DNA from: Muricea muricata
Lineage: Eukaryota; Cnidaria; Anthozoa; Malacalcyonacea; Plexauridae
Direction of reading: 5' to 3'
Assembly: GCA_963855995.1 (NCBI GenBank)
Contig: OY979716.1
Coordinates: 92,511,369-92,575,368 of the forward strand
Length of the DNA: 64,000 bases
Shown here: positions 8,041 to 47,588 of the stretch, piece after piece
Layout: the number at the start of each line of letters is the position of its first letter
How positions within the stretch are numbered: position 1 is the stretch's first letter
The notes under the pieces: generated by a model
Seen by the model: the letters and a program-made list of their open reading frames with translations, nothing else
What the model was told of the DNA's origin: nothing
Databases searched by the model: none
Translations under genes and position numbers: made by a program

Positions 8041-9101
8041 CCAATTATTATTATTATCATTATTATTCAAAAATCTTTATACATGGTAGCCTATTCAGTA
8101 ACCTATCAATATTTAACTATTTACAAAACTGATTTTCAAAGGGCCGTGTGTTAAAAGCGAAAATCCTTATTAATTAATTAATAATTAAACAACACATATG
8201 TAAATAAATATATATACAAATACATACAAACTAATTAAAAGTATAAAAACAAAAAAAACTATATAAGTATATAAGTATAAAAACCCAATCAATTGCTTTT
8301 TTCAAGTCATCGCTTAAAAGCACTAACTGATAGCTCGCGGAAATCACCAGTTATTTTGTTTGATAATTTGTTCCAAGACTTTGCTGCTCTATAGGAAAAG
8401 CTCCTTTTCAGGAAATTAGTCCTAGATTTTGGGAGTGCTAATTTAGTATTCTTACTTCTCAGGCTAAAAATATCATTATTGCACTCATTAAATAATTGTT
8501 CTAAATAATCAGGTCCTAGTCCGGTTAAAGCTTTAAATGTCATAACAGTCTCCCTATTTTTTAAATCAACCTCAATTGGCTTCCAATTAAGATCTTTCAA
8601 AATTGGAGAGGAACAAATGTCATATGTACTAGAGGTAATTATACGCGCAGCTCTCCTTTGTAATTTTGATAGCTTATTAATTACACTACTTGAGCCATCG
8701 TTCCATATTGTGGAGCAGTAATTGAAGTGAGGCTGAACAATCGCATTAATTATACATCAGTTTTATTAACGTGTGTCTTGGGCTATGCTGTTAGAAATTT
8801 TTTTGCATTGCACTTCATTGTGCTTGTCCCACTTCAACTGCTCGTCAAGAACCATACCAAGCGATTTTTGTAGCGAACATGTCTTATATGTCTGAACCCT
8901 AGTTTCAAAATTGGTCTATCATCAATAGAGGCAAGGCGAGATCTTAAACCGATAAGCATAAACTCAGCTTTCTCATTATTCAAACTAAGCTTGTTTGCTG
9001 TTAGCCATCATTGGACATTCTCAAGTTCTTCATTAAGTTTAATTTCAAACTCATTTGAGTTTTGTCCAATACAGGTAAGATTTGTATCATCGGCAAACAT
9101 T
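8041..9101 (-). pseudogene. 3' half of an antisense LINE (RT palm remainder, thumb, C-terminus, tail)
   Basis: Read on the minus strand, this continues the LINE of 13701-15950. Just after the interruption it encodes ADDTNLTCIGQNSNEFE, the catalytic ADD block and what follows. It then has thumb-type blocks, and at 8307-8600 a clean ORF with LNWKPIEVDLKNRETVMTF, FSYRAAKSWNKL and the final FRELSVSAFKR, a typical CR1/L2-class C-terminus. A 3' UTR leads to an ATT-repeat tail at about 8041-8068. Between 8600 and 9000 the frame shifts several times. The element was whole before the 9102-13700 insertion and decayed afterwards or in parallel. Confidence 0.85.
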
Positions 9102-9297
9102 GTAGCCTGAGCCAGACGAATAATGAAAAATATTCGTCTGAGAACATTCGTCACCAATCTTGCCCAGTGACGTTGACCTTTAGTCGAGATTTCGATAACA
9201 AATTTTCATTGGTCAAATGAAAACTGGATGTATTGTACTTTTTTATTGGTTCATTGCGCTATAATAATTGCATTGAATAAATTATCAAGATGGCGGA

Positions 9298-10652
9298 ATG
9301 TCAACACCAAAATACTTAAGGAAACGTAGAATTAATAAGGTATTAAATGACTTTCAAGTACCTTCTTTGTATAAAGAACAGGAAGAGACACTTGCTCAAT
9401 TTTTTTCCAAGCGAGATGTTTTTATTAATCTCCCAACATCGTATGGAAAATTGCTTATATTGCAAGCTGCACCCGTAATGGCTGATAGACTCTTTCGAAG
9501 AAGTACGGGACCAGCGTAGTAGTCGTTATTTCACCCCTAAAAGCCCTTATGGAAGATCAAGTGAGAAATCTAAACAAATTAAGTTTATCAGCTGTCTGCG
9601 TATCGGATCAACATGACGACCAACTAGTTCAAGATGTCATCAGTGGTCAGCACACACACGTTTATGGTTCACCTGAATGCTTTCTCAAATCAACCTGGCG
9701 AGGAATATTTGGAAGCAAGAAATTTCAAGAGTCATTAGTGTGCATTGCCGTCGATGAAGCCCATTGTATCAGTCAATGGTAAGATACATACCCACCTATT
9801 AATTATCATTTATTGTAAAGCAAGTTTTAAAGCAAGCACAAAAGATTGTAATTTTGACAGCTGACTGATAAAATATTATAATAAAATTGCTATTGTGTGT
9901 TCTGGTGTTGTCTAGGGGTTTGCCTGGTGCTAGACGAAGTAATGTTCCATTCAGATGCTGGTATGGGAACCTTGGGGAGTTAAGATCACTTTCACCACAT
10001 GATGTAAACATTCTGGTGGTAACAGCATCGGCTACCAAGGAGACCAGGTCTATAATTTATCAAAGTTTAAAGCTAAGCCATACTACTGCAGTGGTGTCAA
10101 AATCACCCGATAGGTCAAATCTGCAGTATATTTTGCAGTATATGGATAAGAATATTTCACTTGATTTGTTATTCAATGAAGTAATTAAGGATATAAAAAG
10201 TAATGGCATAAGAGCAATAAGGAGTATTGTTTACTGTCAAACTCGAAAGCAATGTGCAGGTTTGTACCGCTTTAGGTGATTTGGAAACCGCTTTAGGTGA
10301 TTTGTTTTATAAGGACGCTGAACCTAACTGCAAACGTCGCTTAGTGGACATGTACCATGCTGAAACACCTGAACCAATAAAAAAGCATATTTCAAAAGAT
10401 ATGTCAAAAGAAGATGGCCATATTAGAGTACTTATCTCAACTATTGCATTCGGGATGGGTATTGATTGCAAGCAAATTAGCAGAATTGTTCACTTTGGAC
10501 CATCTAAGAATATTGAATGTTATGTACAGGAGAGTGAACGTGCAGGAAGGGATGGGTGTAAAAGCAAGTGTATATTATTGTTAAATGGCTTGCTTTCTAC
10601 ACATTGCATGCTCACGATTTTAGAACTTCCAGTGCATGGCGTGTATTTATGA
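9298..10652 (+). pseudogene. RecQ-like DNA helicase, broken
   Basis: A superfamily 2 helicase of RecQ type. Visible motifs in order: motif 0/I region with LPTSYGK (Walker A variant, about 9430-9452), Ia [16 protein letters not shown] (9522-9566), [11 protein letters not shown] (9755-9781), III LVVTASATKETR (about 10012-10047), [22 protein letters not shown] (10438-10467) and [11 protein letters not shown] (10531-10557). The motif VI serine replaces the usual glycine in QEIGRAGRDG. A GT-AG intron of about 135 bases follows DEAHCISQW (9780-9914). Frameshifts occur near 9505-9515 and near 10265-10290, the latter beside a 21-bp tandem duplication. The RecQ C-terminal zinc and winged-helix part is absent. 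It sits inside a TIR element, so it is transposon cargo and not a host repair gene. Confidence 0.85.
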
Positions 10653-11987
10653 AGTTCTTTCAAAATGGTTGTTATTCCTTCCGCCTCATTCTCATTGTGG
10701 TATAACACTCCAAGAAATGTCTTGAAAAAGTATTAAATTTAATTTTAAATTTATTTGTACATACCAACAAAATCTACTCACATATAAACTGTACAGTGTT
10801 CTTCTAAGGATTCAATATGGTAACTGCTACATGTCACTTCATTGCTTAGCAAAGCAAATACAGTATGGCACCTATTGGCACTTCAATCATTAAATACACT
10901 TTTGACGCCAGTTTTTCAAAGCAAGTTAAGATTAACACTGGAGTAACTTGAAATTTAAGCTAAGCAAATTTTTAGAGAGCTTTCCTGTCAACTTTAAAAC
11001 ATTTTCTAATAAATCTCAAGTGAATTAAAAAAACTTGTGCTTTATGTTCTAAAGTTCTTAAACAAAACGAAATATTCAATAACCATTACCTAAAGCAGAG
11101 GGTTAAATTTTAACCCTAAGATAGTGCTAACCAGCTTTGAACAACTGACACCAAGAGGCATTCACAAATGGACTTAAAAAATTATCTGTTGTCAGTATTT
11201 CAAAATTAAATACCTTAAGCTTTTAAATTGGTGTAATGAGAAAGGATAGATGGCATTCTTAGGGCAATAAACTGCTATACAGTAGTTATTATAATTATAT
11301 TTACTTACTGGTTGTGTAGGTTGTTTGTTCTCATTGCCATAAATATGAGAAATGCAGGGTTTACACCATGAAGTACTTAATATTGGTCACCGCTGACCAC
11401 ATGGGACGAAAGGACGATTGTTGTTGTTGTTTCATTGCGAGTATCGCATATTAACTTTGCTAGAGTTTACGTGCTATTATTGTATATCGCTTTCTTCTTT
11501 CTTATAATAATCGGCTGGAAAGATTATACAACCTTCCTGTAAGTAGTAACTGTATTTTATATTATTGTATTCATACTCTTCATTGTTGTAATTTTGATAT
11601 TATTTTTGTAACAGAAAGTTCGTTTCATCGTTGGCTAATAAATCTATTAAACAAGTGAGAAGCGTATTTCTTCAAGAAATATGGGTTTCAACAACATCTT
11701 TGAATGACTCTAAACATGGAATATTTTTCACTATGCTCTTTGTGTAAGTTGTATATAATTTTCTCTTTGCAAAAGTTGTTCCTTTGAACTCGGAATACAT
11801 ATTCCATTCTCAAGACTTTTTAGATTACCATCATCTGGCTGTTTGGTGCTTAGATGATTACCATTTATTCGGTTCTCAGTGGCACAAACTGTCAAGTAGT
11901 GTCTATCTATGGTCTGATTATCTTCTGTCATATGATGCACCTCTTGACCATTGGGTGGAGCTTTCAAAGGTGGTTTGTGCTGTGTTA

Positions 11988-12224
11988 TGGTAGGTCCTCA
12001 TCTGGTGAAGAATTTCGGTCACTGTCACTGCTCGATTTTTGATCATCGTCAGTAGAACTTGCTTCTCTAGCTGATGCTGTCAACTTTGCTTTCATCCATT
12101 CACATTCTTGCTCCTTCATTACCTTAACTGAATGATCATAATCATGCCCAAATTCAGTGAGCTTCCTATACAGCTGTGTATGCGAGACAACCAGACGCAA
12201 CATTTTCAGTCTTTTCATTGTAGG
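11988..12224 (-). pseudogene. Downstream exon of the zinc-finger/transposase-like gene
   Basis: A likely acceptor, a T-run ending TAATAG, is followed by a 77-codon reading MKRLKMLRLVVSHTQLYRKL... that ends in an acidic serine-rich tail and stop. The LVVSHTQLYRKL block resembles the segment that follows the NAVQ block in the same remembered family, which is why I join it to 12845-13499. The best visible donor upstream (GTAGGT near 12738-12743) gives the wrong phase, so an indel is likely. The tail is much shorter than expected, so the protein is truncated. Confidence 0.4.
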
Positions 12225-12844
12225 CTATTAAAAAAAAATACAGTCCAATATATAATGCTGATCAAAAAATACTGGTTTATGGTGGAGACTGAAGTAAAGT
12301 TAGTAGCAATAATCACGTTGTGGCAAGTCTAGAATACTCTTATGCCAGTTGCATAGACATTGCTATGAACTTAACGGTAGCTGAAGGGAACCCATCTCAA
12401 AGTAGGACTTTGTGTTATATTTAAATTATGAGCAGGAGTGCTTTATCAACAAATAAAACTGACGACACAGCTAAGAGTTTTAGATGCTGATAAAGCAGAA
12501 CTGCAACCATTTTAAATGGCTTAAAGAACAACCAATGTTATAACCCGACCAGAAAAAAAAATTTAAAATGGACAAAGCGGCTATATCACAATATATAGGC
12601 GTTGATTAAAATTGTTTTCCTTTGAACTTTGTTCATGAATTATGATTTTTTAATTCAACACCTCTAGATAATCTGAGATTGCACCATGTACTTTTCACAA
12701 ACATAATCTGTGTCAGAGAAAATCCAACAAAAATATCTATTGACCTACTTGAATGATACAAAAATTTGCTCAGCATTAATTGGACAGCATTCATACGTGA
12801 AGATCTGTTTCTCGAGAGAATTGATGCCGCCATACCAGCATTTG

Positions 12845-13499
12845 CTATTTGTGTATATGTACCACGAAAGAGAATTTTACCCAAAGACTGCAAGTCATCT
12901 GGTAATCCTCTTTCTTTTTGACTGTACGTTTAACCACTGTAACTTTACGCTTACGACACCAGAGGATTGTTGTGAGCCTGTAGGTAATATATAGGCACAT
13001 TCTGTGATGTAGGTAACGCGGTTGACTGTTTAGTTGGTGTGGAATGGTGAACGACCGATGGAGCATGCGATAAAGAAGGGTCCTCCATACTATGAAACGA
13101 CAACGAACAACCAGTTCGCATCAACACAGGTGATACGGGTGTTACAAACGGTATAAATTTTGATTGAATGCATCGTTTCTTTGCTATATTGTCACACTCA
13201 GGCGATCCTGGCGGCGAACTGAGAAGAGAACATTCACAAGTGTCCGTGACTTGTTGACGCGAAGTAGCAAACTCTATTAGAGTAGCAAGCAATTCACGTT
13301 CCTGCCTTTTAAAATTGTCAAGTTTCTTCAGCTTGTCTAAGCACGATTTACAAATATAAGCAGAGCCAATTTGTACAGCAAAAGGCAAATTAGAGCGCAG
13401 CGAAGCACGTACATCGAACTTTGCCTTTCCATCAACCAGGTAACGCTGATAAGCTTTCTCTATTATACCATGACACAGAGTGCAACTTATTGGTTTCAA
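12845..13499 (-). pseudogene. CxxC zinc-finger protein, N-terminal exon(s); putative transposase of the helicase element
   Basis: The 183-codon reading opens with CTLCHGIIEKAY and, 40 residues on, has SAYICKSCLDKLKKL, a CxxC...CxxC pair like a ZAD-type or treble-clef module. A serine/proline-rich linker follows. After one frame change near 12960 come a basic VTVVKRTVKKKEDYQM block and, at 12780-12893, SLGKILFRGTYTQIANAG and SILSRNRSSRMNAVQLML (with a small gap between them). The latter resembles, from memory, the conserved core of DUF6589-type proteins of animals and fungi; this is inference. No ATG is visible at the start: the reading begins at a TTG. The gene is convergent with the helicase inside the same TIR element. 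Confidence 0.5.
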
Positions 13500-13700
13500 A
13501 TAAAAAAACAGTTATGGGTAATTGCAATGCGTTTCTTTTCTAAAAAATATGACCACTCATACCAAGCGCCTTTGTTTTTGACAGAAACGAATTATGCAAA
13601 ATTACGTTAATTTATGTTAAATTATGCTAATGAGACCGAGCAAGATCAGTGACGAATGTTCTCAGACGAATATTTTTCGTTATTCGTCTGGCTCAGGCTA

Positions 13701-15950
13701 CAAACATTGAAGGTTTTGACGTTTTCAAGCTTTTTGGCAAATCGTTAATGTACAGTAAAAAAAGAATGAGGCCAAGATTCGACTCCTGTGGAACCCCGTA
13801 TTTAATATCTTTTACAGATGATTTCTTACCATTGATTGGACAAACCTGCTTTCTACCCTTGAGGTACGATTTAAAACACTCTAGGCTACATCCCTGAATT
13901 CCATATTTTTCTGGTTTAGCAAGTAAAATTGAATGATCGACAGTATCAAATGCCTTTTTAAGATCCAGGAAAAGGACTCCAGTAAACAGCCCCTTATCCA
14001 TATTGCACAGCCATTCATTTGTAGATCTTAGCAGGGTAGTTTCCGTGGACTGTTTAGCACGGAAACCCAACTGAAGATCCACAAGAATGTTGTTCTTTGT
14101 CATAAAGGATTTTAACTGCTGGAATACTAATTTTTCAAAGACCTTAGCAACAACGGAAATTACCGAAATTGGTCTGTAATTTCCACAGATATTCTTATTA
14201 CCATCCTTAAAGACAGGTGTTACTTTAGCCAAATTCCAGTCGTCAGGGAATATATATACCAGTCGGAAGTGATAGATTGAAAATATCGACTATGAAAATA
14301 TTGCAATATTATGTGCTGCATCTTTTAGCAGTTTTGCGCTAGTTCCATCCAGTCCTGAAGACTTTTTGACGGAAGGAGATCTATTGCACTAATTACTTCA
14401 TCAGTCATCTATAGTAACGAAGTTAAAGTTAAATATGTTATCATGCGTAACAGTCAAAAAGCTTAACGGATCAGTGTCACAGTCCTTAATTGCTTTGGAT
14501 AACATACTACCTATAGTAGAAAAATATTCATTAAATCCAGCTGCTATCTCCTCATCTTTTGTTACGGTTTTGCCATCAAAATTAATTTCCCTTATTTGGC
14601 TGGTTTTAGAATTTTTATTCAGTAACTCAGTACTGTTCTTGGAATCACTCAATTTCGCCGTAAAATAATTCTCCTTTGAGGTTCTTATTAGATTGGTTAT
14701 TTTGTTTTTACATTTTTTACAGGCGGTTTCATAATACACAGATCTCAATCGAATAGCTTGCCTTTTTAAATAATCTCTGTGGTAAATCAGATGCTTGATT
14801 TCGCTCGTAATCCAAGGGTTAAATTCCCTTTTAACACGCCTTTGTTTAACTGGCGCATGCTTGGCGGCAATACTAAGGAATTTGAGTTTAAAATCGCCCC
14901 AAAGTTCATTCGGATCATTTGAAACGGGCGAATACAAATTGAAAATTTCATTCAAGTCATGATTAAACGCATTAACGTTATGTCTTTTGTATTGTCTCGT
15001 TAGGACAAATTTATAGGTAATTCTTTGGGGAAACTAATCTTTCGGCATATGTAGACAAGGTTTTGGTCACTGACTCCAAGCGGAATGACTCCTGTTTCTA
15101 ATGTTTTGTTATCCCCAAAAAACGTAAATATAACATCAATTAAACTAGATGTTGTTGGGGTAACTCTCGTCGGTTTTTCAATGTGTTGCTGTAATTGATA
15201 AGTATTCATTAGGTCGAGTAATTTATATGTAACTTGACCCTTTGGCGACTCCGAAAAGTTATAGTTAAGATCACAAGCAATGATAATTTCTATATTTTCA
15301 TCGTCAACTAGTTTTAAGAAGTGTTCAAATTTTGAAATAAATCATTACTAGAATTTGGTGGTCTATACACCATGTTGCAATTAAAAAAGGCTTGCTTTTT
15401 TGCTTTCTAACCTCAATATCAAAGCAGCTCAAGAGCATCAATTACTAGATCTTGCCGAACAATATATGATATATTTTCCCGAATAAATATTGCAACACCA
15501 CCTCTGCTCCATTTCGATTACGATCTAGTCTAACAATATCATAGCCAAGAATCTCAACTTCACAGTCAAGGACAATTATATCGAGTTTAGTTTCGTTTAC
15601 AGTTAACACATCGAGAGATTTCCTTTGCATATATACTAAAAGTTCATCATGATGTTTAACAAGACTGGCTATGTTAATCTGGCCAGTTTAAAGCCTTTAA
15701 GTTTAGAGAAATGAAAGCTTGCGCTAGATTCCAACATTGCGAGGTCGGTGCTGTTTTTATGCCCTTCTACATTGATTGGGACATCAGTAATCGACTGTCA
15801 ATTACAATGTTTAAAATACTCAATAAATTTTCCAGCTAATTTTGTGGAGCCTTGCTTATTCACGTGTTCTTTCAATTCTCCCTTTATTGTTACCTTGTGG
15901 TATCTGAACTTTCAAAAAGATTGAGCAGGAAGCTGCATTAAATTCAGGAT
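13701..15950 (-). pseudogene. 5' half of the antisense LINE (endonuclease, linker, RT fingers/palm)
   Basis: Minus-strand blocks in order: a FKLKGFKLARL-like stretch and DELLVYMQRKSLDVLTVNET (APE endonuclease start, about 15570-15700), LDVIF..GDNK and VIPLGVSDQNLV (15060-15150, endonuclease end), a long linker with RREFNPWITSEIKHLIYHRD (14780-14840), and RT with VTPVFKDGNKNICGNYRPIS, FRAKQSTETTLL, GVLFLDLKKAFDTVDHSILL and GVPQESNLGLILFLLYINDLP (13740-14225). The reading stops at the ADD motif, where the helicase transposon is inserted. A few stops and frameshifts occur (for example between 14232 and 14401), and GVPQGS has become GVPQES. It is one of the better preserved LINEs here. Confidence 0.9.
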
Positions 15951-16084
15951 ATTAAATTTGGAACAGGATAGTTTTACGAACATACGAAAACAAAGTATCA
16001 GTAGCAGTGTATGTTTTCAAGTCACTTGTAGTCAAGTAGAAATACAAGAGGGAGCCGATCAACGGTCATTGTCCCTAAGATTCG

Positions 16085-16217
<133 letters not shown>

Positions 16218-16221
16218 TCGT

Positions 16222-16283
16222 AGACCTGCTGTGCTACTCCGAGTTTCACGCTATAAAGCGATCGTCAGGCAACTGACAAATCT
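16222..16283 (-). ncRNA. Hammerhead ribozyme motif in the PLE 3' UTR (minus copy)
   Basis: Read on the minus strand this gives AGATTTG, a short loop, TTGC, then CTGACGA, stem II CGCT/AGCG with loop TTAT, GAAA, stem III ACT/AGT with a 3-base loop, the cleavable GTA, GCA, and CAGGTCT closing stem I. All core residues of the hammerhead are present. Compared with the + copy, one stem I base differs (U for C) but still pairs as G-U. The 10.1/11.1 position is a U-U mismatch instead of the usual G-C. Hammerheads in Penelope-like elements are established knowledge. Confidence 0.75.
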
Positions 16284-16580
16284 GGTGAAGCTACTCTCTA
16301 TTTACAGTTTGATACTAGGTATCGCGTTACATGTCTACACTTGGTAAATAGTTCGGTTCGTTTGTTCAGTAAGGCATTATCTTTGTTCTTCATGATGGTC
16401 AGTTTTTCCTCAAGGCATAAGTTACATCTTCTGGAACCAGCTTTGTAGGCAGGAACCTTCTTAAGTAACGACCATTTGATAGTGAATGGCTTTTTCGCTT
16501 CCTTCAGTTCCCATACATGCTTTGATAGCTCCGTTTCCGTTGAGTACTTCTTCTCAGCGAGTGATTTGGCGTGGTTTCTA

Positions 16581-16786: not shown

Positions 16787-17486
16787 AAATGTTGTTTTGA
16801 AGTCGTCGGCGGTGACTCCAATGTACTTTATGGGCTTGTTATCTGCTGTAACTTCCGCTTGGTATACCACGCTTTTTGTGAGGCATTTACCTTCGGCCGG
16901 GCATTTGTTGGGTTGTCTACAGTTGCACTGTCACGTGTTCTCTGTGTTGGTTACGTTCGTTTGTCTCGTGTGTTTATTTAGTATTTTCCTGTTGTGTCTG
17001 TTTATGAACGAGCTCATGTTGTCTAGGCAACTGTAACTAATTCGCACGTTGTGTCGATTAAAGATTTTCTGTAGTTTGTTAGAAGAGGGGAAGTGTTGGT
17101 CAATCAGTTGGAGGAATCGTTGTCCTGTGTTTGTTTTTACGTTCTTGCTGTAAGGGGGGCTGTACCATACAGTGTTGCGTTTTCTGTTTCGTCTTTGCGT
17201 TTTGTTGCTGTCGCTGTTTTCGTTGCTTGTAAATTGCTCGTAGGTTAGGGTTTCGTCGAAGTTGCTTTGTCTTAAAGCGTCATTGTACAGTTGGGATGAG
17301 GCGTCAAATGTTTGTTTGTTGCATGAGAGTTTGTTGATACGTTTGTTGATGGATGAGGGTAGCTGCTTTACGATAGCAGGTGGGTGGTTTGAAAGACGGT
17401 TGATGTACAAGGGTTCGTCATTAGGTTTTCTGTACGGTTTGTATGTGCCGTCCGTCAAGTCAAGTGTTATGTCTAAGAAGTTTACT

Positions 17487-17689
17487 CAGTGGCGGATCTA
17501 GCGTAAGTCAAAATAAATTACCACAGCTCATTCTAGGATATATTTACATTTTAAAATACCTTCAAAGCAACTTCATTGGTTAGATTTTATTCTTTTGAAA
17601 TTCATAACCTATGACATTGCTAAAAAGTTATTTTGAATTTAAAATTGAGCTGCTATAATTTTTTTTGACTTACCCTGGATCCGCCACTG
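17487..17689. mobile_element. hAT-type MITE with perfect 8-bp TSD
   Basis: 203 bp starting CAGTGGCGGATCTAG and ending GGATCCGCCACTG, with the TIR continuing as GTAAGTCAAAA. It is flanked by AGTTTACT on both sides (17479-17486, 17690-17697). Removing it restores the PLE reading VNFLDITL on the minus strand. A second copy is at 24735-24927 and a related terminus at 63389. The 8-bp duplication and CAGNGGCG ends mark the hAT superfamily. Confidence 0.92.
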
Positions 17690-17728
17690 AGTTTACTCGC
17701 CTCAGGTTTGCCGTAGCTGTGATGAAAA

Positions 17729-19936: not shown

Positions 19937-30154
<10,218 letters not shown>

Positions 30155-32240: not shown

Positions 32241-32954
32241 AATGCATAAAACATCGCCAATTGAAAATCTACATACGGTTTGAAATCCATGCCATTCTAT
32301 TTTCTTACACGGGCTAATCTTTTAAATTCGAGCAAGTAGTTAGCGAGAATTTAACTTTTAGTGAATGCATGCAGTTGGAAAATTTAATTTGCCAGATAGG
32401 TTTAATTTGATCGCATGGTCAACAAACATATTTTCTAAATAGGTACTTGTATCTTTTATTGAAAAATAACCCCGCTTCTTTTCCTATTTTCTTCTTGGCA
32501 ATTGTACCAGTAGCATCGTCTTTAAAAGCTCTTTTTAGAGAGTTATATTTCACAACTATACACATAGCCTATAACTGCTAAGAACAAAGATAAATAATCT
32601 TAATTGATAGCATTCCATTGCAGGCGGAAAGTTATGTTTTGTGACCCCAAAGTCTAAACTATACGAAGAATGATCCCTACACAATCAAACACACTGGCAA
32701 TCAATTCTACGGATCATTTTATTCCAATGTATACGTATTAAACGTGATTCAGACTATTGCATCAGCGAATATAAGCCAAATTTCGTCAATAGCGTGTTCG
32801 TATGGAAATTTCCGACAATATAAAAGTGCTTGTAAATAATCTTCTACTCCATGTATTGAATTAAAGTTTGAGTATAAAGGCATTTAAATACAAGCTCTAT
32901 TTTATTTTAACAAGTATCTGATGATGTGGCCCCAAATCAGTGTAGTTTTAACTA

Positions 32955-33173
32955 ACACCCCGTTTACAGGGTACAGGATTCATTTGATCACGATATCAAA
33001 TTGCATGATAGTTTAAAGACGAGTATAGCTTTTAAATTTAAGATAAGATTACGTACAGAGTGTAACAACAGCCAAACATGCATAATGTAGTACGAGTTAA
33101 CATGACGGCAAACTACTCGATCCCCATGTCATGATCATGTGCAAGTGGATTCGATTCCGTGTAAATGGAGTCT
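32955..33173. mobile_element. M1 MITE copy inside repeat family L
   Basis: ACACCCCGTTTACAGGGT... to ...GTGTAAATGGAGTCT. The interior (ATCACGATATCAAATTGCATGA, AAGACGAGTATAGCTT) matches the copies at 47382 and 50121. Present at the same place in all three family L arms, so it was part of the ancestral repeat. Confidence 0.75.
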
Positions 33174-33639
33174 TATAAAGACGCGAGTTACTGCGGGTGA
33201 GTTTTGAATCAAATTTTAATATATTTGTAAGAATAGTGTTTAACAATAATATCTACCCCTTGTTGGAAAGCTTGTTTTATAGGGAATATTGAAATTATTC
33301 GAATTTTTGACTCATTTCAAGGGAAGGGAGGCAAACACGAGCACAGAAAATTAGATTTTAGTGCTGCAATTTTAATTTACGTCTGGAAAGAGTAAAGGAT
33401 GAAACGGCGTGAATTTGCTCTGTGACATGTGATACATCGTATACTTCATGCGCTTTGACGACAGCCTTAAAATTGCAGGTCAATTTGCATCTTCTGAGGT
33501 TTACTGAACAAGTATTACTGCAGCTACCCACACACCAGGCAGTTGCACTCAAATTGCAGAGGACCTATACAGCACGTACACACTTCACTTATATCCGTGT
33601 AAATAAACTTGATTAATTTTTTTGCCGCACGGACGTCGA

Positions 33640-34050
33640 CGCTTATTTCGATTCCGTAGACGGTCGGACACCTCCCAGATGGTCGAGCACCTCATTATCT
33701 CATTCCCAGACTGCTCTGGCTCATTTAGACGAAGTTTCCGACGGTTTCCAGCGAGCTCGTTGTTAGCTCAGTCGTCTAGGCATGCGATTTTGAATAGATT
33801 ATAGGCAGGGGTTCGAATCCCATCCGAGCTTTTTTTTATTTTTAAAGTTCGTCAAACTTTTTTTCTTCTATTTTTTTACTTTTATACGATTTTTCTAAGG
33901 GTTAGGTTTAGGGTTTGGGTCAGGGATTGGATTATTAAAATTTAAAAAGAAAAATCTATTAGTTTTATCATACACATAGGCTTGAAAACGAGATCAATGA
34001 GGTGTCGGCCATCCTGGAGGTGTCCGACCGTCTACGGAATCGAAATTTGC
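33640..34050 (+). mobile_element. 411-bp TIR element with 9-bp TSD and an internal tRNA-like unit; copy B
   Basis: The ends are CGATTCCGTAGACGGTCGGA and its complement. GACGTCGAC is present on both sides (33631-33639, 34051-34059), while the two related family L arms (near 50779 and 46095) have it once, an uninterrupted empty site. This makes the 9-bp duplication certain. Long TIRs with a 9-bp TSD suit Mutator-like elements. The interior carries a tRNA-like segment and a T-run. The opposite-orientation copy is at 7066-7448. Confidence 0.9.
33754..33830 (+). tRNA. tRNA-like pol III unit (not a functional tRNA)
   Basis: A 77-base segment: acceptor AGCTCGT pairs with CCGAGCT (6 of 7), D-stem TTAG/CTAG with a CTCAGTCGT loop, A-box TTAGCTCAGTCG, T-arm AGGGG-TTCGAAT-CCCAT (4 of 5) and a consensus B-box GGTTCGAATCC. 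It is followed at once by TTTTTTTT (33831-33838), a pol III terminator. The anticodon arm cannot be folded, so it should not work as a tRNA. Sitting inside a TIR transposon it could still drive a short pol III transcript. Confidence 0.5.
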
Positions 34051-34362
34051 GACGTCGACAATGTGTTCATGAACCAAAGTATTCAGTGCATTTTAATTTG
34101 GTACCATTATTGCTTGTCCTGAATCCATATCTTGATTTTTTAGTCAGATGCGAGTTTCTTAGATGAATTTCCTCTGATTACACGATGACACCAGTTCTTC
34201 AAATATAATTCTGCATGTATGAAGCGTGGCCAGAAATAATTAAAGGTTAAGGCATAATTAAAACAAAAGGGGTATAGTTCTCAGAGCAGAAATAATTTTA
34301 AAGGAACAGCTTTTGGGGACAAGACTGTGATTTTCTTCACCTTCAGGCTTGCTAGGTAGGAA

Positions 34363-34650
34363 AAAGCAGATTTAATGCCGGAAATAGAGAGGCTTGCTGA
34401 TAAATAGAATGGAAAGTGTCAGGGTAAATTGCCAACATATTTGACATGGTCGGTAGATCAGGATGATTTCGTGCCTGTTTAGAAGAAAGGACTGTTTAGA
34501 CTTAGAAAGCTTAGGTCTTCTTAATTCGCCTTTAAATCCAACTAGGTTGTTATAATCTGACATTATAATTTAATCTATTTATACTGAGGCCAGTGGTATA
34601 AAAAGTGATTAAAGTTAACTATGATCAGTGGAAGCATCAAGCAATTAATG
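34363..34650. repeat. Direct repeat, right copy (pair with 31465-31750)
   Basis: See the left copy: same sequence and orientation. Differences are scattered substitutions plus a small indel near 34570-34590. It begins directly after the end of the family L copy. Confidence 0.8.
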
Positions 34651-34689
34651 TATTTTTTACTTAATCACTATTTAACTACAAAACAGCTC

Positions 34690-35240
34690 TTATCATAAAA
34701 AGTGACTAAGAGTTGTATAACATTTAGGGGAGGGGTTGTATACTTGCATCTTATTAATCGTGTATTTTAAATTTTTTTAGTATCTCCCCGCTTGGGCCAT
34801 TAGTAATTGTAGGAGTTGCATGTTCGGTAAAGCCTACTTACTGTGGCTACCTACTACCGACAGCCTACTTTGTAATCAGACTAAATGCATGTAGGAAGTT
34901 CAGTTCTTACTAAAAATTCAAGATCATGCACGAAAATAATAACTACGGCGTACTAAGACATATTTGGGATTGATGAATAACTGTGCGGTTGGCAAGAACA
35001 AATTATTCAAGTATATTTAGACATATTTACTCCAAGCGCACTTGCTTTGTGTCCTCCGCATTTTGAGTGCTACTGTCTAATGTGTGGGAAGCTGCAGTAA
35101 TATTTATTTACTATACATTAGAAAATGCAATAAACCAGCAACTATCCGGGCTGTCAAAATGTATGAGATGTATGATGTAGCACAGGTCACAGAACAAATT
35201 CGCACGGTTTCATCCTCCATGCGAGGGATAGGGTAATTTT
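34690..35240 (-). repeat. Diverged inverted piece of repeat family L
   Basis: Blocks such as GTAATTGTAGGAGTTGCATG, AAGCGCACTTGC, GTGGGAAGCTGCAGTAATATT and GGTCACAGAACAAATTC match 45700-47130 in order, the left arm of the 46-51 kb palindrome. With 32240-34355 it forms a decayed version of that palindrome. Confidence 0.65.
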
Positions 35241-35244
35241 CTCT

Positions 35245-36250
35245 TAATATTGAGTCTTTCTTTGAGCGAAATGTTGACAATATGGTTGTTGATTCCGTAA
35301 ACATCGCAGTTTTGACAAATTTTAATACAACAGGACCTTCGAGATAAATGTCGCTACGTTGACAGAACCTTGCACTCTAGGTTTACGACGTCGATCCTCT
35401 AGTCAAATTTAGAAATCGAATTTCCAAAGTTTTGCTGTGCATGGCATCAGTTTATCGCTTTTCTGCTTCTGTAAACCTGATCAAAACAACGGACGATGAC
35501 AACAAGCAACTTCTTTAGATATGCTAAGATACTTAAATTTTGACATGCTAAAGGATAATTCTTATCCACCAAACACAATGCTTAATCTAAAGCGTTCTTG
35601 AAAATACCAACTATTGCCACTTGGTGGCGAGGCATCACTAATAACTGATAAACTTTGCCCTCTAACTAGTGATTTTATAACCTAATCTACCCCGAATTGA
35701 AAAAAATAAACTTTTCAAGGATACTACATACATGTAGACATAATTAACCAAGACAGTCTAATTTACGGTATCAAAAACGAGTAAAAAATGAAGTTTTTTG
35801 AGTAAAAGATTTTTGGAATAAGCAGCATTTTAATGCACATGTACATGCATCTTAATTATTGCTCAGCCATTGGAACAATTGTATAAAATTCAATAAAAAA
35901 CAGCCATAAAAGGAGTTTTCTTTTACAAAAAAACTTCTTTCTCGCATAATGTGTTAGATTATGTAATTTTATTCATGGAATAAACAAAAAAGGTTTACAA
36001 AAGGTTTTTCGCCTCAAACAATATGGCAGACATTTTGAACGTTCGACAAACGTACTAATCACGTGTCCGTAATTAATTTATGCAATATCAACTATAGTTA
36101 CGTAACTTGAAGTAATTAAGTCAACATAATGATCATCATAAACTTATCCCCCAGTGTTTTAACGTAAGGAAATCAAGGCTTGTCAGTAAATCATTTTTAA
36201 AGTAAATATAAAAAGAAACAAATTTCGTCAAAAATTCAAAGATTTCTAAC
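35245..36250. other. No gene recognised
   Basis: AT-rich, no coding or repeat signal that I can support. Confidence 0.4.
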
Positions 36251-36279
36251 AAAGCCGGTCAAATTTATAGTTATTTATG

Positions 36280-36960
36280 ACACTAAACGAGTTTCGTTTT
36301 TCGTTTCTAAGAAAGACAAAGTTCCTTGTCTATCGCGTATTAATTTTGTTTACGAGGTTTCATGTCCAGGTTGTGGCAAAAGTAATGTAGGTATGACAAG
36401 AAGATGTTTATCAGTGCGTTTAAAAGAACATGCAACACAACTCACCACAAGTGCAATAGGAAAACATCTTTCAGACTGTGAACACGCGCAATACCTAGCA
36501 AGCCAACAAAACCAGTACTCTCTACTAAATGACATCCCTCTTCCTTCAGACAATGTGCCCACTCCTATTGAAAATTTAGTTCTCAAAAACTTCCGAATCT
36601 TGCACTTAACTAGATCTACCAGTTACAATATCCTTGCTTTTCTTGAAGCTTTACTAATTATATACAACAATCCACAACTTAAGACAGGACTGAAGGCTAG
36701 CAAAGAGCTTCAACTCTTCACATAATGGCGCTCCATCTACATTTTCACTTTTTACCAGTTGGGTCACTGCTTGTCTACTTGTAAATATAAATATAAATTT
36801 CTATCATGTAAATATAGCCTAACAGTCTTAGGTAATCTCTCGCTTCCGGTGACGCAGTGCTTTCGCTATCTTGCTCTGTATATAAGCTGTATATGTAAAG
36901 TGTTATGTTTCCTTCTGTCTGACGATAACTTTGAAATAAAGTCGAAAATTTATAGTTTCA
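36280..36960 (+). pseudogene. Penelope-like element 3' fragment (GIY-YIG endonuclease, third lineage)
   Basis: KVPCLSRINFVYEVSCPGCGKSNVGMTRRCLSVRLKEHA (36318-36434) is a GIY-YIG start with the CPGC knuckle, followed by IGKHLSDCEH and a C-terminal block ending LKTGLKASKELQLF (stop at 36723). The YIG half reads NVG, so its tyrosine is replaced by asparagine and catalysis is probably lost. The 3' UTR has CTGACGA (36919-36925), a stem ACTTT/AAAGT and CGAAA, hammerhead-like, plus AATAAAG. RT is absent. Confidence 0.75.
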
Positions 36961-37060
36961 ATTGTTTGTCTTGTTTTTATTCATATCTTGAATTGCAAGA
37001 TGACTTTATTTTTCGGAATTTGTTTCTTTTTATATTTTTACATTTTTAAAGTGTTGTCCA

Positions 37061-38130
37061 ACATATCGAGACAATAATATTTCTACGATAATTAAGCAAT
37101 CTAAATTAATAAAATTTTCTTCATGTAGAGAACATAATTCACATTAATGTATCAAATCTTTTAATAACCAATGAATGAAAACGAAAAACAAGACAAATGT
37201 CTGTGTGAGAGAAATGGGTCAGTGGGGGTGAAGTGCTTCGATGATAAAGAATACTACATAGCATTATCAGTATTGTCATAAACATGACTCATAAACATGT
37301 AAAACTTGATAACCTAGCGGACTGTATATATGGACAACACTTTGAGCCTGAAGGCCTTTGAATTGGGGTTATAATCCCCGTCAGGCAATGTTAGCTAGAC
37401 TGTTTAAAAATCTCTCTGGCATTAGCCAGTTCAAGGGGTTGTTATATTCTCCTTCGACAATTCCTAAAAATTGCATCGATCATATTTACCATAAATAATA
37501 AGAGTCGATGTACACAAAGTGATCATTGAAAGCATTTCAATCCCATGACCATGTATTTATTATTACAATAAAAGCCAATTACAATAATATAGCAAATCCA
37601 GTAACTTCTTGTACCAAACTACAATACTTCGATGTCTTTCTCTAATATCTTTTCGCTTGGTTCTATCGCCATTGATTATGTTTACATGCAAAATTATATA
37701 ACCTAGTCGGTTGTATACATGCCTGCTTGGAGACTAAAGCCCTTTGGGTTTGCAAAGCCCTATCAGACAAGCTTAGAGGGTTACGATCCTCTGCCCCCTA
37801 ACAATAACATATCCCGCTAGAATTTATAAGATGTGTATACTGGAGTTTGGTGGAAATGTCCTTTTTATTCTAATGAGGTGGGTTGCTGCGAAAATATTTA
37901 GGCAGCTCTCGCACTTCCTTTCTCCGCTAAGGTTAGGGCAAAGAGATACTTAACACACATGTATAACCAGCATATGTCTTACAAGACCTTTTCTATTGGT
38001 TAATCCAATGTCAACAAAACAATATGACATTTTTGTCAGCTATTAGGGAGCCTTCCCTGATATGCACACGCTGCATCATGCGCAGAGCGTGATCACTGAT
38101 GCCCTACACACGTAAAAATCAATTTGTTTG
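37061..38130. other. No gene recognised
   Basis: Two stretches beginning ATAACCTAG.CGG.TGTAT (37307 and 37700) resemble each other over ~25 bases. Nothing else is supported. Confidence 0.4.
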
Positions 38131-38134
38131 AAAA

Positions 38135-38590
38135 ACCTTGTAACACGTCTGATAGTACTATCAAGCTTGTTACAAGTTGTTAACAGCTTGTTTCAAATTT
38201 GTAAATTCCAACAAACACGCAAGCAGTGCGAAGACAACTGGCGAACAGACTTGTTACAAGTTGTTTGCAGACTTGCCACCACCTGTGCGTTTTTACTTGC
38301 CGTGTAGACCAAACACGTTAAAGCGCACAACTTGTAACAAGTACGTTTCCGTCTTGTAACAATACTGTCCCGACAACTTGTCAACAATATGTTTTCGCAC
38401 TGCCGATAACAAGATGTTGCAACAAACTTGTAGCAGCTTCTTGACACATTGGTAGTAAGGCTGTCGTGACAATGTTGTAGGAAGTTGTTGAAACAAGCTT
38501 GTAGAAGGCAGGTTAACAATTTGAAACAATGCTGTAGCAAGTTGTAAAATTCAATCCGTAACAACTTATTTCTTCAGTGCTGTTACAACA
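38135..38590. repeat. Cluster of short degenerate ACTTGTTACAAGTTGTT-type repeats
   Basis: The motif TTGTTACAAGTTGTT or its complement occurs again and again in this ~450-base block (38167, 38250, 38330, 38380 and on), mixed with GTTGTTGAAACAAGCTTGTA variants. Each unit is itself an inverted repeat (AACTTGT/ACAAGTT). ORFs here are artefacts of the repeat. Confidence 0.7.
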
Positions 38591-38599
38591 TGGCAGCTC

Positions 38600-39027
38600 G
38601 TGAAAGACCTGCGCGTAAAAAACATGCTTGTGTATTTCACCTCGCGTGTCTTCCCAGGGTTGTACACAATATAATTCCCAAGATGTTCAATTTTGACTTG
38701 CTATATTTAATATAGTATTTAATGATTAATATACAAGAATGTGAACAAGAGAATACAAACAAATATACAAAATAATGGCTAAAGACAAAGGTGAGTATAC
38801 TGTGTGTAAAAAAACTTTATTGGGCATTCAGTTGAGAGTGCAGCAATATTACAGTATTGCATAAAATATAGTTGACATATATATTTTAAATTTATATTTT
38901 CACAAACATACAAAATATAACTATTAAATAAATCCAGAGTTTATCCAGATGAAGTGATGGACATTTGGTTGCTCATTGACAGACTTTACCAATTACCATC
39001 CGGAATTCGACTGTATGTATGCTTTAT
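38600..39027. other. No gene recognised
   Basis: AT-rich flank of the BEL element. Confidence 0.4.
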
Positions 39028-39032
39028 ATATG

Positions 39033-39291
39033 TGTTTACGACGGCAAACTTGTCAGAAAAGTTGATTTTTTAACATATATTTTAGGATAAAACGTAAAGT
39101 TTTTTAACATATATTTTAGGATAAAACGTAAAGTTTTTTAACATATATTTTTTAGGATAAAACGCAAAGTTCTAAAATACATTGAACTGTGCTAATGTAA
39201 CAACAACCATGTGTTTTTTCACGCGTGGCTAATCCCGCGTGGCCAAACGTCAACCACAAAAATGTCTAAATATCAATATCTGTCCAAAAGA
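39033..39291 (-). repeat. 3' LTR of the BEL element, with tandem 34-36 bp repeats
   Basis: It matches the 5' LTR except for three tandem copies of a unit TTTTTTAACATATATTTTAG GATAAAACG... (about 39066-39172) where the 5' LTR has one. This explains the length difference, 259 against 188 bases. Its inner terminus reads TCTTTTGG instead of TGTTTGG. A GGGTGGGGG purine tract (minus strand, near 39292-39300) abuts it. Confidence 0.9.
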
Positions 39292-39326
39292 CCCCCACCC
39301 GTAGCGTGAACCCAAGGGGGGGAACG

Positions 39327-42300
39327 TCACTTTTTTTCATTATGAGCCTCAAATAAAGCCAACTTCCCGACCGGACGAACATAAGTTCCCGTTTTCGTTA
39401 CTACTTCGGCCGATCTCACGAGTCCGTCAGCACTTGCGATAGGTGCTATGACTCTGCCCAAACGCCATTGACCCCTCGGAACATTGTCCTCAACAATTAG
39501 AACTAAATCCCCACGACGGATATTACGTTGTATATTACGCCACTTGCTACGTTCAATCAAGTGCGGCACATACTCTCTTCTCCATCTTCGCCAAAACTGG
39601 TCAGCTAAAAATTGACTATGTCTCCACCGACGACGTAAAGACATATCTCGCTGGACAAACTCTCCCGGTGTTAGATTTGAGCTCGCACGTCCGTGCAGAA
39701 AATGATTGGGCGTTAGAATACTCACATCCGTAGCCGAGGTACTACTTCCACCGTAGACAAGTGGGCGAGAATTCAGAAGCGACTCAACTTCGGCGACTAC
39801 TGTAAGGAAGACTTCATCGACCGTGACTACATTCCCCATGATCGCTTTCATAGACTTGATCAAAGATTCCCAAGCTCCACCAAACCAGGGGGCAGCAGGA
39901 GGGTTAAAAATCCAACGGACTCCTCGGGCACTAAGCTCGTCAGCAACTCGTTTCTGATCGATTTCTTGCAATGACTTTATCAACTCTGGCTCCGCGCCAA
40001 CAAAGTTCGTACCGTTGTCGCTCAAGATACGGACTGGGTTTCCACGACGGGACTGAAAACGTCGCAAGGCCATTATAAACGAATCTGCTTCTAGGCTGTG
40101 AGCTACCTCGAGATGGACGCCACGCATGTGTAGACATGTAAACAAGCATATATAACCCTTCTCGATTCGGTTACGACCAACACGGACAGAAAATGGACCA
40201 GCATAGTCCAAACCCACGTACTGGAATGGAACACTAGCATTGGCAAGACGAGTGGATGGTAGATCACTCATTTTCTGGGCAAGTGGTTGAACTCGGCGTC
40301 GGTGGCATAGGAGGCATTTGGTGGCGCAATTCTTGACTTCAGAACGACCGTGCAGTATCCAATACTTTTCTCGTATGTGATTAAATACGTGTTCGACACC
40401 TGCATGGATCAGCCTCCGGTGATAGTGAATAACAATCAAACGAGTAATTTCGTGCGAATGATCTAATACGATGGGGTGCTTCGTTTCCCATGACAACTCT
40501 GCTTTGTCGATGCGTCCCCCCACTCGCAGGACTCCATCTGTTAACTGTGGATCAAGACTTGCGATACGGCTCCCTCTTGCGATCGGACGATTTTTGGACA
40601 ATGACTCAATCTCTGCTCCAAACCGGTCTCGTTGTGCAAATTTGATCCAATATTTCTCGGCCTGCTTCAATTCTTCCACACTCAAAACTTCAGCGCTACG
40701 CCGATCTATCTTGCGTAGATTGTGACAAAACTGTAAGATCCAAGCTGTTACACGAACGAGTCTGAGCCAACTGGAATAGGCGGCTGGATCAAGACCTGGG
40801 ACAGGAACTTCTACCCTTAATACCTTCTTCTTCATTTCCATTTCGCTAGCTAGAGGGGCTGAGCAGCTAATGTCGTCAGTCGGCCAGTCCGTTTTGTCAC
40901 TCTTAAGAAAATCTGGTCCGTTAATCCAATCTGATTCAGGTTGGAGATTTTGGGCAGCAGCTCCCCTCGTTGCGATGTCTGCAATATTCAAGTTTGTTCT
41001 GATGTGATGCCATTGTCCGGGATCACTCTCTGACGTCTCTTCCGCAACTCGGTTTGCAACAAATGGTCTGAAGTTCCGTGGTTCTCCATGTATCCACCAT
41101 ATCGCCGTTGTCGAATCTGACAAATAAATGACTTGACGCATACTAAAATCTAACTCTTTGCATATGGTCTTCGCAACACGAACAGCTAACTGGCAACCCA
41201 TAAGTTCACCTCTCGGAATGGAGATGGTTTTCAAGGGCTTTAGGCGTGTCTTTGCCATGATCAAATGACAAATAACTTCACCGTCCATAAGAACAGCACG
41301 CATGTAGGCAACGGCAGCGTAGGCATCTTCGGAGGCATCACAAAAGACAACAAGCTCTCTCGTCAATGTCTTTGAAGACAGGCTGTAGATATACCGTGGC
41401 ACTGCAAACAATTTCAGGGCAACCAACTCTAATTCCCATTTCGACCATTCAGACGCGATGTCGGTCGGTAAAGCCATACCCCAATCCAGACCTCTGGCCC
41501 ATGTTCGTTGCAAAATGATCTTTGCACGCACCGTAAATGGACTTGACCATCCTAACGGATCATATAAACTGGCTAACTTGGCCAGGACTCCCCGTTTCGT
41601 CGGCGGTGTATTTAGGCTTTCAACATGTGCATAGGCAAGTCCAAGCGTATCCGACTGCGCATCCCATCGAGTTCCCAACGCTCGACCGGAGGGTAACTCT
41701 CCTTGTTCAAGGGATTCATCGGAAATACTTCGTTCAGCTTCCGGTATGGTTGCGAGCACCTCCGCTGAGGACGAGAACCATTTTCGCATTGGGAAACCTC
41801 CTTCGGCCATCAGAGATGTGACATCAGCTCGCATGTCAACTGCCTGGGGCACATCATTACATGAAGTGTAGAAGTCATCTACAAAGATATCTCGTCGAAC
41901 TCTGGCTGAAGCTTCCGGCCAATGACCTTGATTGTCTTCAGTCGTACGAATCACAGCAATGTTGGCTTCACAAGGTGAACATTTATCGCCGAATACTAAA
42001 CAATTCATCTCATAAATGTCTGGAGGTCTTGTCGAATCCAGGTCGCGCCACAAATACCGGTGGTACTTGCGGTTCTCTTCCTTCACACGAACATGACAGA
42101 ACATATGAGACACATCTCCTACAAGGGCGACGGGTCTTTCGCGAAACCGTAACAAGATACCTGGCAAATCATTGTGAAGACTAGGGCCCGCCTCAAGGCA
42201 GTCGTTGAGGCAGACACCATAGTGCTTCGAGGCAGAATCGAAAACAACTCGTGGCAGTGGTTTGTGGGGGCTGATAACAGGATGGTGTGGTAACAGCCAT

Positions 42301-42749
42301 TGTTCACCGTCCATAGCGTGCTCCCTTGGATGTAGTTTACGAGCAAACCCCTTCTCAACATATGCATTGATAGCCTGGGAGTAACCATCCGCTAACTTTG
42401 GGTCCTTCCGCAAACGACGTTCCACCGATTCTAAGCGACACAGGGCTGTCTCATAATTGTTAGGCAGTTGTGGTTTGTCATCCTTCCAAAGCAATCCCAA
42501 TTCATAACCCGATTCTACCCGACGACACGTCTCATTCATCTTGTCAACAGCATGTTGCTCACTACCTGTAAAGGTTACCGTTTCCTCAGCACGCACACCA
42601 AAACTGTCTATCTCCCAGAACTTTCGCAACTGGTGATTGACATCTTCCTCGCCTTCCACGACTCGTGTACGCAAAATATGTTTTGCTGCATTGCTCATAG
42701 TTGGTACTGGACCTGCTATTACCCAACCAAGTCGTGTCACGCTTCCCAC
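39327..42749 (-). pseudogene. BEL/Pao pol: RT, RNase H, integrase
   Basis: 1140 codons open. Residue positions count from the first codon of the open frame. RT ~120-330 with catalytic FVDD at 289-292 and a first aspartate near 212 in VGDVSHMF. RNase H ~460-580 with D (VFCDAS, ~472), E (PRGELMG, ~515) and D (LSDSTT, ~545). Integrase zinc module ~777-815 (H..H...CLLC). Integrase core with D848 (VGLDYAGP), D911 (ILSDNGTN) and E961 (GGAWES). DUF5641-type C-terminal domain ~1045-1135 (RGQWRLGRVI). All catalytic residues are in place. It is cut off from gag-protease by a frameshift near 42740, so it is not expressed as the normal polyprotein. Confidence 0.95.
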
Positions 42750-44373: not shown

Positions 44374-44489
44374 CTCTCTGATCGACTCGATTTATATTCC
44401 TTGTAATGGCTGATCTGGCGACCTTTCTCTTGGATCGAAGTTTCTCAACATTTTCCGCTTCGACAGGCATTTCTTCACGATATTTTTAT

Positions 44490-44505
44490 CCGGCTCGAAG
44501 GACCA
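44490..44505 (-). other. BEL primer binding site, tRNA-Tyr type
   Basis: The minus strand reads TGGTCCTTCGAGCCGG, two bases inside the 5' LTR. It is complementary to a tRNA 3' end CCGGCTCGAAGGACCA, which is the usual eukaryotic tRNA-Tyr end. Confidence 0.75.
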
Positions 44506-44507
44506 AC

Positions 44508-44695
44508 TGTTTACGACGGCAAACTTGACAGAAAAGTTGATTTTTTAACATATATTTTAGGATAAAACGTAAAGTTTTAAAATACATTGAACTGTGCTAA
44601 TGTAACAACAACCATGTGTTTTTTCACGCGTGGCTAATCCCGCGTGGCCAAACGTCAACCACAAAAATGTCTAAATATCAATATCTGTCCAAACA
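44508..44695 (-). repeat. 5' LTR of the BEL element
   Basis: 188 bases, TG...CA bounded on both strands (plus-strand ends TGTTTACG and CCAAACA). One copy of the 34-bp unit that is tripled in the 3' LTR. Confidence 0.92.
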
Positions 44696-44745
44696 ATATG
44701 TATCATATAGTAAGTATTGTCTACTGGTCAATTTGAAGCTTGGAT

Positions 44746-45115: not shown

Positions 45116-45119
45116 AGTA

Positions 45120-47381: not shown

Positions 47382-47588
47382 AGACTCCGTTTACACGGTA
47401 CCGGATCCGTATGATCACGACATGCAGCTCGCTCGAGTAGTTTGCGGTCATGTTAACTCATACTACATTATGGATGATTGGCTGTTGTTAAACTCTGTAA
47501 TCTTATCATAAAAGCGATACTCGTCTTCAAACTATCATGCAATTTGATATCGTGACCATACGAATCCTGTACCGTGTAAACGGTGCCC
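47382..47588. mobile_element. M1 MITE in the left palindrome arm
   Basis: AGACTCCGTTTACACGG... to ...CCGTGTAAACGGTGCCC. Mirror image of the copy at 50121-50335. Confidence 0.8.

Follow-up and report, generated by a model that had tools for sequence, protein, structure and literature searches.

A non-autonomous, probably AcademH-like DNA transposon with convergent helicase and DUF6589 genes lies within a LINE of Muricea muricata

The window analysed here is a stretch of 64,000 nucleotides from Muricea muricata (assembly GCA_963855995.1, contig OY979716.1, positions 92,511,369 to 92,575,368 of the forward strand). It contains an internally deleted transposon of 4,598 bp, copy A, at positions 9103-13700 (no strand assigned), which sits inside a LINE on the minus strand. 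The initial annotation had placed the start of the element at 9102 and given it terminal inverted repeats (TIRs) of 64 bp; the start is 9103, and the repeats are long but measure 61 bp with 95% identity by blastn (left TIR, 9103-9163, plus strand; right TIR, 13640-13700, minus strand). The termini read TAGCC...GGCTA, and the terminal 20-mer occurs twice in the window versus zero times in 100 shuffles. The left TIR contains the palindrome CAGACGAATA-N8-TATTCGTCTG and an additional ATTCGTC, which are possible candidate sites for transposase binding.

On both sides of copy A lies the 9-bp target site duplication (TSD) CAAACATTG, at 9094-9102 on the left and 13701-13709 on the right (neither with a strand). 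Copy A alone allows a TSD of 7, 8 or 9 bp, because the base beside each end is G or C. The length is read as 9 bp because copy C, a related copy elsewhere in the genome, has an exact 9-bp duplication, with TCTATGGAA directly before TAGCC...GGCTA and TCTATGGAA again directly after it. Moreover, a second family, which has the two genes described below, shows a 9-bp TSD in all three copies inspected, each with both ends present. The 8-bp duplication claimed earlier is thus rejected on the evidence of copy C and the second family. In copy D, another related copy, 8 of the 9 flanking bases of the duplication agree. At the spacing of copy A, 9-base flanks match by chance at 95 of 59,280 window positions, and the case for the TSD therefore depends on the TIRs, the LINE frame and the other copies.

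The upstream part of the interrupted LINE reverse transcriptase frame is located at 13702-14232 on the minus strand (RVT_1, E 6.9e-21). Once the element and one duplication are taken out, the frame reads through as ...TSKPSMFADDTNL... (...SMFADDT...), which bears out the restored frame described in the initial annotation. That annotation also had the element landing in the catalytic codons. The FADD box was indeed hit, but the insertion point is in the F-A codons, and both D codons adjoin it outside the duplicated bases. The landing in this box looks like chance.

The left gene of copy A encodes an SF2 helicase of the RecQ type, as had been proposed, in which both the DEAD and the Helicase_C domains were found. 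Exon 1 (9289-9778, plus strand) carries the DEAD part with the DEAH box retained, has a frameshift near 9490-9516, and reads GKL in motif I versus GKS in the relatives. A GT...AG intron (9779-9915, plus strand) separates it from exon 2 (9916-10628, plus strand), which carries the Helicase_C part, has a frameshift near 10270, and is truncated after about residue 245 of the 465-residue relative P0018. P0018 and P0017 are both RecQ-like, and P0017, a Dendronephthya gigantea protein named 'helicase Q-like SIM', aligns to 97% of the helicase query at 62% identity.

The second gene runs convergently on the minus strand, and its product is cysteine-rich, in agreement with the CxxC zinc-finger protein reported before. 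The N-terminal part, CxxC...CxxC, is at 12951-13499, and its match to zf-AD is weak (E 0.026, under the cut-off). It is followed on the same strand by a piece with KERGLPDDL...GMAAS...MNAVQLML... at 12672-12929, within which 86 residues are missing compared with P0005, by a piece with PTMKRLKMLRLVVSHTQLYRKL... at 11988-12224, and by a piece in two frames (EVHHMTEDNQTIDRHYLTVCATENR... and ...VKNIPCLESFKDVVETHI) at 11675-11997. The last of these lacks 11 residues (KITIDNIDYCQ in P0014), among them the first of the candidate D residues. A 321-bp insertion with AGAAAT on either side (11354-11674, no strand) then interrupts the coding part, and a short exon piece, SHIYGNENKQPTQP, follows at 11307-11353 (minus strand). 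The final surviving piece is at 10628-10726 (minus strand). The protein is therefore present where it had been placed, at 11988-13499, but its pieces extend beyond that range to about 10628. Three of four longer relatives score above the curated cut-off of Pfam DUF6589 (PF20231) and the fourth just below it, whereas the window pieces alone stay under the cut-off because most of the domain is deleted in copy A. The D. gigantea protein P0138 (LOC114533248, DUF6589) has transposase blocks in common with copy A.

Copy A is a non-autonomous deletion derivative from which neither protein can any longer be made; late movement, if any, must have been driven by another copy. In addition to the frameshifts and stops, the 86-residue loss, the 11-residue gap and the 321-bp insertion, it has a large deletion. 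Alignment to copy B places the junction at 10606 (no strand), where the left side ends at 36873679 of copy B and the right side resumes at 36884970. This deletion took the 3' ends of both genes, which copy B keeps. Regarding the candidate catalytic residues, the first-D block is missing from copy A, and the second D and the E are deleted. Copy B likewise shows the two genes converging, in the order seen in copy A; its right end was not found in the sequence up to 36917000. Copy C (C2:3999045-3999115) and copy D are tiny copies with the same ends and neither gene, and these remnants measure 71 bp and 34 bp. In a genome search with the TIR 20-mer at up to 3 mismatches, 23 matches were obtained versus 15 for the reversed control. 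Eight of them have 0-2 mismatches, and copies A, B, C and D account for six of these; at C13:3045244 and C6:8254413, also with 0-2 mismatches, no second end was found within about 1.5 kb on each side. The 15 matches at 3 mismatches equal the control level. The viral contigs contained no match to the 20-mer.

The pairing of the two genes is repeated across the M. muricata genome, which has at least 104 DUF6589 and at least 92 helicase matches. Among the matches listed, 41 DUF6589/helicase pairs lie within 6 kb and all 41 are convergent; three are split exons, leaving 38 loci. Tail-to-tail arrangement with a RecQ helicase applies to 40 of the at least 104 DUF6589 matches. The helicase list takes in copies A and B, with two matches each, and their DUF6589 pieces lie outside the DUF6589 list. 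The random control for pairing covered the DUF6589 matches on C1 only. For 30 of the at least 104 DUF6589 matches, loci were available, and a helicase piece was found within 1.5 kb in nine of these and in none of the other 21, four of which (L083, L091, L092 and L094) do pair within 6 kb. The helicase piece at L090, one of the nine, is weak (E 4e-5). A helicase-like piece was seen by eye at the DUF6589 locus L084.

The three copies of the second family, with both ends, are 99.4-99.8% alike where compared, and this near-identity suggests recent movement. A comparison of C1:65.3M with C63, seeking an element end, gave an edge that is an N run in C63. The DUF6589 alignment returned 56 stretches from the viral contigs and 80 from the genome contigs collection, none of which is a relative. 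The helicase alignment gave 32 loci in the viral contigs with 24-33% identity, taken as ordinary RecQ.

The Pfam family DUF6589 has no assigned function; its residue conservation, gene pairing and, tentatively, predicted fold make it very probably a DDE transposase, and the DUF6589 link and suspected transposase role in the initial annotation hold at that strength. In alignment A3 (25 rows), the candidate D, D and E are conserved in 8/8, 13/13 and 16/16 of the rows that have a letter, one of the eight rows being an exon-edge fragment and two being near-identical. When the predicted model of a DUF6589 relative was compared with 592 aligned chains, the best were the Hermes and HzTransib transposases, with moderate Z and 7-9% identity. 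Foldseek with the second DUF6589 model gave 48 matches, none at E <= 0.001. The first model, built from four rows, was discarded (pLDDT 31), and a PDB sequence search with the four-row alignment gave no match. The name DUF6589 was not met in the literature searched.

The intact form would be an element of about 7.4-7.5 kb with long TIRs, a RecQ-type SF2 helicase gene and a convergent gene for a zinc-finger DUF6589 protein, very probably the DDE transposase. The transposase would most probably bind the palindrome-bearing TIRs, and the D, D and E, in a predicted RNase H fold, would excise the element. Joining to the target would occur by 9-bp staggered cuts, the fill-in of which would give the 9-bp duplication. 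The helicase probably acts by unwinding the ends or by aiding repair of the donor gap, and incomplete gap repair could have given rise to deletion forms such as copy A and the 71-bp and 34-bp remnants. A useful by-product is a probable DDE transposase role for a Pfam family of unknown function. Several of the helicase relatives carry ordinary gene names in public records, for example 'ATP-dependent DNA helicase Q-like' in Dendronephthya, and if these are indeed transposon genes, relabelling would remove false host genes. Recent movement of the second family, if true, would make the helicase role in cut-and-paste transposition testable.

Copy A is most likely a non-autonomous AcademH-like DNA transposon, the intact form of which has a gene for a RecQ-type SF2 helicase converging with one for a zinc-finger DUF6589 protein. 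It was foreseen that copies lacking these genes, or ending elsewhere, would make the genes chance passengers. The outcome mostly favoured the initial annotation. The TIR-only copies C and D do lack both, but they have the same ends; in copy B both genes are present and ordered as in copy A, and 38 further loci from diverged families pair them convergently. Acquisition of the helicase by a single TIR element copy is thus scarcely credible, and it is ruled out by copy B and the genome-wide pairing. Kolobok elements duplicate TTAA, 4 bp, in contrast to the 9 bp found here, and a RecQ-bearing Kolobok element (KolobokH or Kolobok-1_CCri-like) is very improbable. Its likeness lies in a DDE transposase with a RecQ helicase: according to PMC9587614, Kolobok lineages with RecQ exist, and Kolobok-1_CCri has RecQ on the complementary strand. 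The same source, however, gives KolobokH as known from fungi only, and it lists a C/DxxH motif between the second D and the E as a Kolobok feature (PMC9587614). Such motifs are unconserved here, being scattered in at most 4 of 25 rows per column, with six rows spanning D-E.

It is unlikely that animal DUF6589 proteins form their own helicase-coupled DDE lineage, with tail-to-tail genes and a 9-bp TSD, distinct from the published AcademH transposase, and that the convergent layout (possibly with overlapping antisense 3' ends) is regulatory. Less likely again is a separate, non-Academ superfamily or lineage in which an element with a DUF6589 DDE transposase acquired its RecQ helicase and its 9-bp TSD independently. 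The opposite-strand layout in 41 of 41 listed close pairs speaks for such a lineage, as does the fact that the Academ link is drawn here from element features rather than from transposase sequence comparison. Against it, AcademH was reportedly described from animals and fungi, going by the title (Kojima, 2020), and TSD length and helicase both fit the AcademH features stated in PMC10045372. The initial annotation would have argued a separate lineage from an 8-bp TSD; this falls away, since 9 bp is within the 9-10 bp given there for AcademH.

Copy A, read as AcademH-like, looks ordinary for its class. The predicted DUF6589 model has its best fold matches in Hermes (hAT) and HzTransib; the TSD is 8 bp in hAT and 5 bp in Transib, and Hermes and HzTransib are not known to have a helicase. 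P0017 and P0138 of D. gigantea are similar proteins, but they are labelled as ordinary genes in their sources. When the helicase and DUF6589 proteins were compared by eye by the length of the single longest contig given for each, no contig common to both kinds was found, which says little about linkage. AcademX belongs to the Academ superfamily, as does AcademH, but has a 3-4 bp TSD and a nuclease instead of a helicase, according to PMC10045372, and was rejected for copy A on account of its 9-bp TSD and helicase. AcademH, by its description in that source, has a TSD of 9 or 10 bp and an SF2 helicase (PMC10045372). Copy A resembles it in its TIRs, SF2 helicase and 9-bp TSD, and differs in being broken and in having a probable transposase recognised through DUF6589.

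The TIR element in the window (copy A, 9103-13700, 4,598 bp) has inverted terminal repeats that end at 9103 and 13700 and read TAGCC...GGCTA at the termini. The initial annotation gave them 64 bp; window self-comparison confirms their presence and inversion and places their length at 61 bp with 95% identity. An exact search for the terminal 20 bases finds two occurrences in the window and none in 100 shuffles. Copy A is flanked by CAAACATTG at left and right, and because the bases adjoining the ends are G and C, a target-site duplication (TSD) of 7, 8 or 9 bp is possible from this copy alone. A TIR search of the genome (453 Mb, 74 contigs) added copy B at C1:36872181 to the one in the window, together with two tiny copies that run from end to end, namely copy C (C2:3999045-3999115, 71 bp), with TCTATGGAA on both sides, and copy D (C2:18237521, 34 bp), flanked by GTTTTTTGG and GTTTTTTGA. 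Copies C and D fix the termini as TAGCC/GGCTA and the duplication as 9 bp, which replaces the 8 bp first proposed. Two further TIR-like ends, differing at 1 and 2 positions and located at C13:3045244 and C6:8254413 (L048, L049), showed no second end within each locus, and are possibly solo ends or chance matches.

When copy A and one duplication are deleted, the reverse transcriptase frame of the LINE is restored exactly, as annotated, and reads ...TSKPSMFADDTNLTC...; the LINE flank contains an RVT_1 domain (E 6.9e-21). The insertion had been assigned to the catalytic codons. It does lie in the FADD box, and the codons struck are those for F and A.

Pieces on the + strand of copy A give domain matches to DEAD (E 5.7e-9) and to Helicase_C (E 1.5e-11). 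Among helicase relatives, the top score belongs to P0017, from the octocoral Dendronephthya gigantea, with 62% identity across 97% of the query; P0018 has 83% identity over 59% and P0019 88% over 56%. P0017 and P0018 are RecQ-like by NCBIfam, both below the curated cut-offs, and P0017 also by PDB sequence comparison, in line with the RecQ-type helicase originally reported. In the helicase P0094, the match to the window copy runs to residue 95 and resumes from 161, with an unrelated stretch between, as if interrupted. Alignment with relatives makes the - strand cysteine-rich protein the N-terminal portion of a longer protein, and relatives place further transposase pieces on the same strand at 12672-12929, 11988-12224, 11675-11997, 11307-11353 and 10628-10726. 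Three of four longer relatives pass the Pfam DUF6589 (PF20231) cut-off and the fourth falls just below it; therefore, the earlier guess of a DUF6589 protein was right. Named relatives of the copy A proteins come from octocorals, stony corals, and one sea anemone; on these relatives alone, an anthozoan host is probable.

Judged by its sequence, copy A is a broken copy. Both genes have frameshifts relative to relatives, 86 residues are missing near 12840 compared with P0005, and the transposase lacks 11 residues of P0014 (KITIDNIDYCQ). The transposase remnant also contains a 321-bp insertion (11354-11674) with AGAAAT on each side. A search of copy A for the C-terminal parts of the helicase and transposase gave a best match of only E 0.015. 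Copy B aligns with window 9103-10606 at 94% and then 10606-11185 at 92%. Between these parts it keeps the remainder of both genes, which converge: the helicase match ends at 36882777, and that of the DUF6589 part, with VGDQLTVER and a C2H2-like stretch, at 36883056. Thus, the window copy lost ~2.9 kb (by subtraction) at junction 10606, and with it the 3' ends of both genes. Copy B has stops in both genes as well, and an ~8.4-kb element is nested inside its helicase gene (C1:36873896-36882295; L036/L038). This nested element has similar inverted ends, GGTGT...GTCTCA...TCCCCCAGTCT. The right end of copy B was not found up to 36917000.

A second family with DUF6589 and helicase genes has three copies, each with both ends, on C1, C13, and C3 (L098-L103). 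Their identity is 99.4-99.8% over the end stretches compared, and the family was probably active recently. The termini are CAACCTCGTACCCAGG...GGTTG with a perfect TIR of at least 60 bp, and the duplications ACTTCGAAG, CTCTGCTGA, and TGTAAAAAA are 9 bp in all three. The C1 copy (29246764-29254208) is 7,445 bp long, in keeping with the 7.4-7.5 kb estimated for an intact element of the window family.

Across the genome, the PF20231 search gave at least 104 matches (102 of 515 candidates scored) against 0 of 14 control genomes, and the P0018 search at least 92 at E <= 1e-20 (91 of 522 scored). At least 41 pairs lie within 6 kb, all convergent, with no divergent or tandem pair; they comprise 40 DUF6589 and 39 helicase matches, each counted once, and reduce to 38 loci when split exons are merged. 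C1 holds 31 of these pairs, and when all 92 helicases were placed at random on C1 and paired with the DUF6589 matches of that contig, none of 1000 runs yielded more than 5 pairs. In a separate look, 9 of 30 extracted loci had a helicase piece within 1.5 kb, always 3' of DUF6589 and on the opposite strand. Under these cut-offs, 64 of the 104 listed DUF6589 matches are without a helicase partner. DUF6589 and the helicase make up a fixed module; the claim that the two genes belong together is borne out by copy B, which has both in convergent orientation, and by the 41 of 41 convergent genome pairs.

One DUF6589 subgroup (L067, L069, L071, L073-L075, L077, L079-L081, L084, L086-L089, L093) has open frames of 325-422 aa, and with 12 queries and a cut-off of E <= 1e-4 no helicase was matched less than 1.5 kb away. 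A helicase-like piece was seen by eye in L084, so the subgroup helicases may only be more diverged. Beside the DUF6589 exon of L083 lies a long TA-type microsatellite (475-1141) that translates as YIYIYI, and the window has another at 15958-16347. Window self-comparison also found long self-complementary stretches at 17484-17692, 25951-26399, 27652-28057, 49535-49714, and 61085-61290, which are fold-back or MITE-like elements, and several 0.3-1.4 kb repeat copies in both orientations, ~80-92% alike, at 32249-51214.

Beyond the observed TIRs, TSD, and gene pairing, the DUF6589 protein, whose transposase fold is predicted, would most likely bind palindromic TIR blocks as putative binding sites, excise the element, and insert it via 9-bp staggered cuts. 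The helicase probably aids end opening or donor-gap repair. Where such repair stayed incomplete, deletions would result, and these would account for the window copy as well as for the remnants of 71 bp and 34 bp.

Among known families, KolobokH and Kolobok-1_CCri are disfavored by the 9-bp TSD, as Kolobok duplicates TTAA, and by the C/DxxH motif not being conserved in the DUF6589 family alignment. Both also carry RecQ (PMC9587614). The literature searched contained no mention of DUF6589 and no paper joining DNA transposon, RecQ helicase, transposase, and coral. According to Kojima 2023 (PMC10045372), AcademX has a TSD of 3 or 4 bp with a nuclease, and AcademH a TSD of 9 or 10 bp with a helicase. 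The window family shares the helicase and the 9-bp TSD with AcademH as stated there, and on that description the element is filed as AcademH-like, a candidate member of AcademH.
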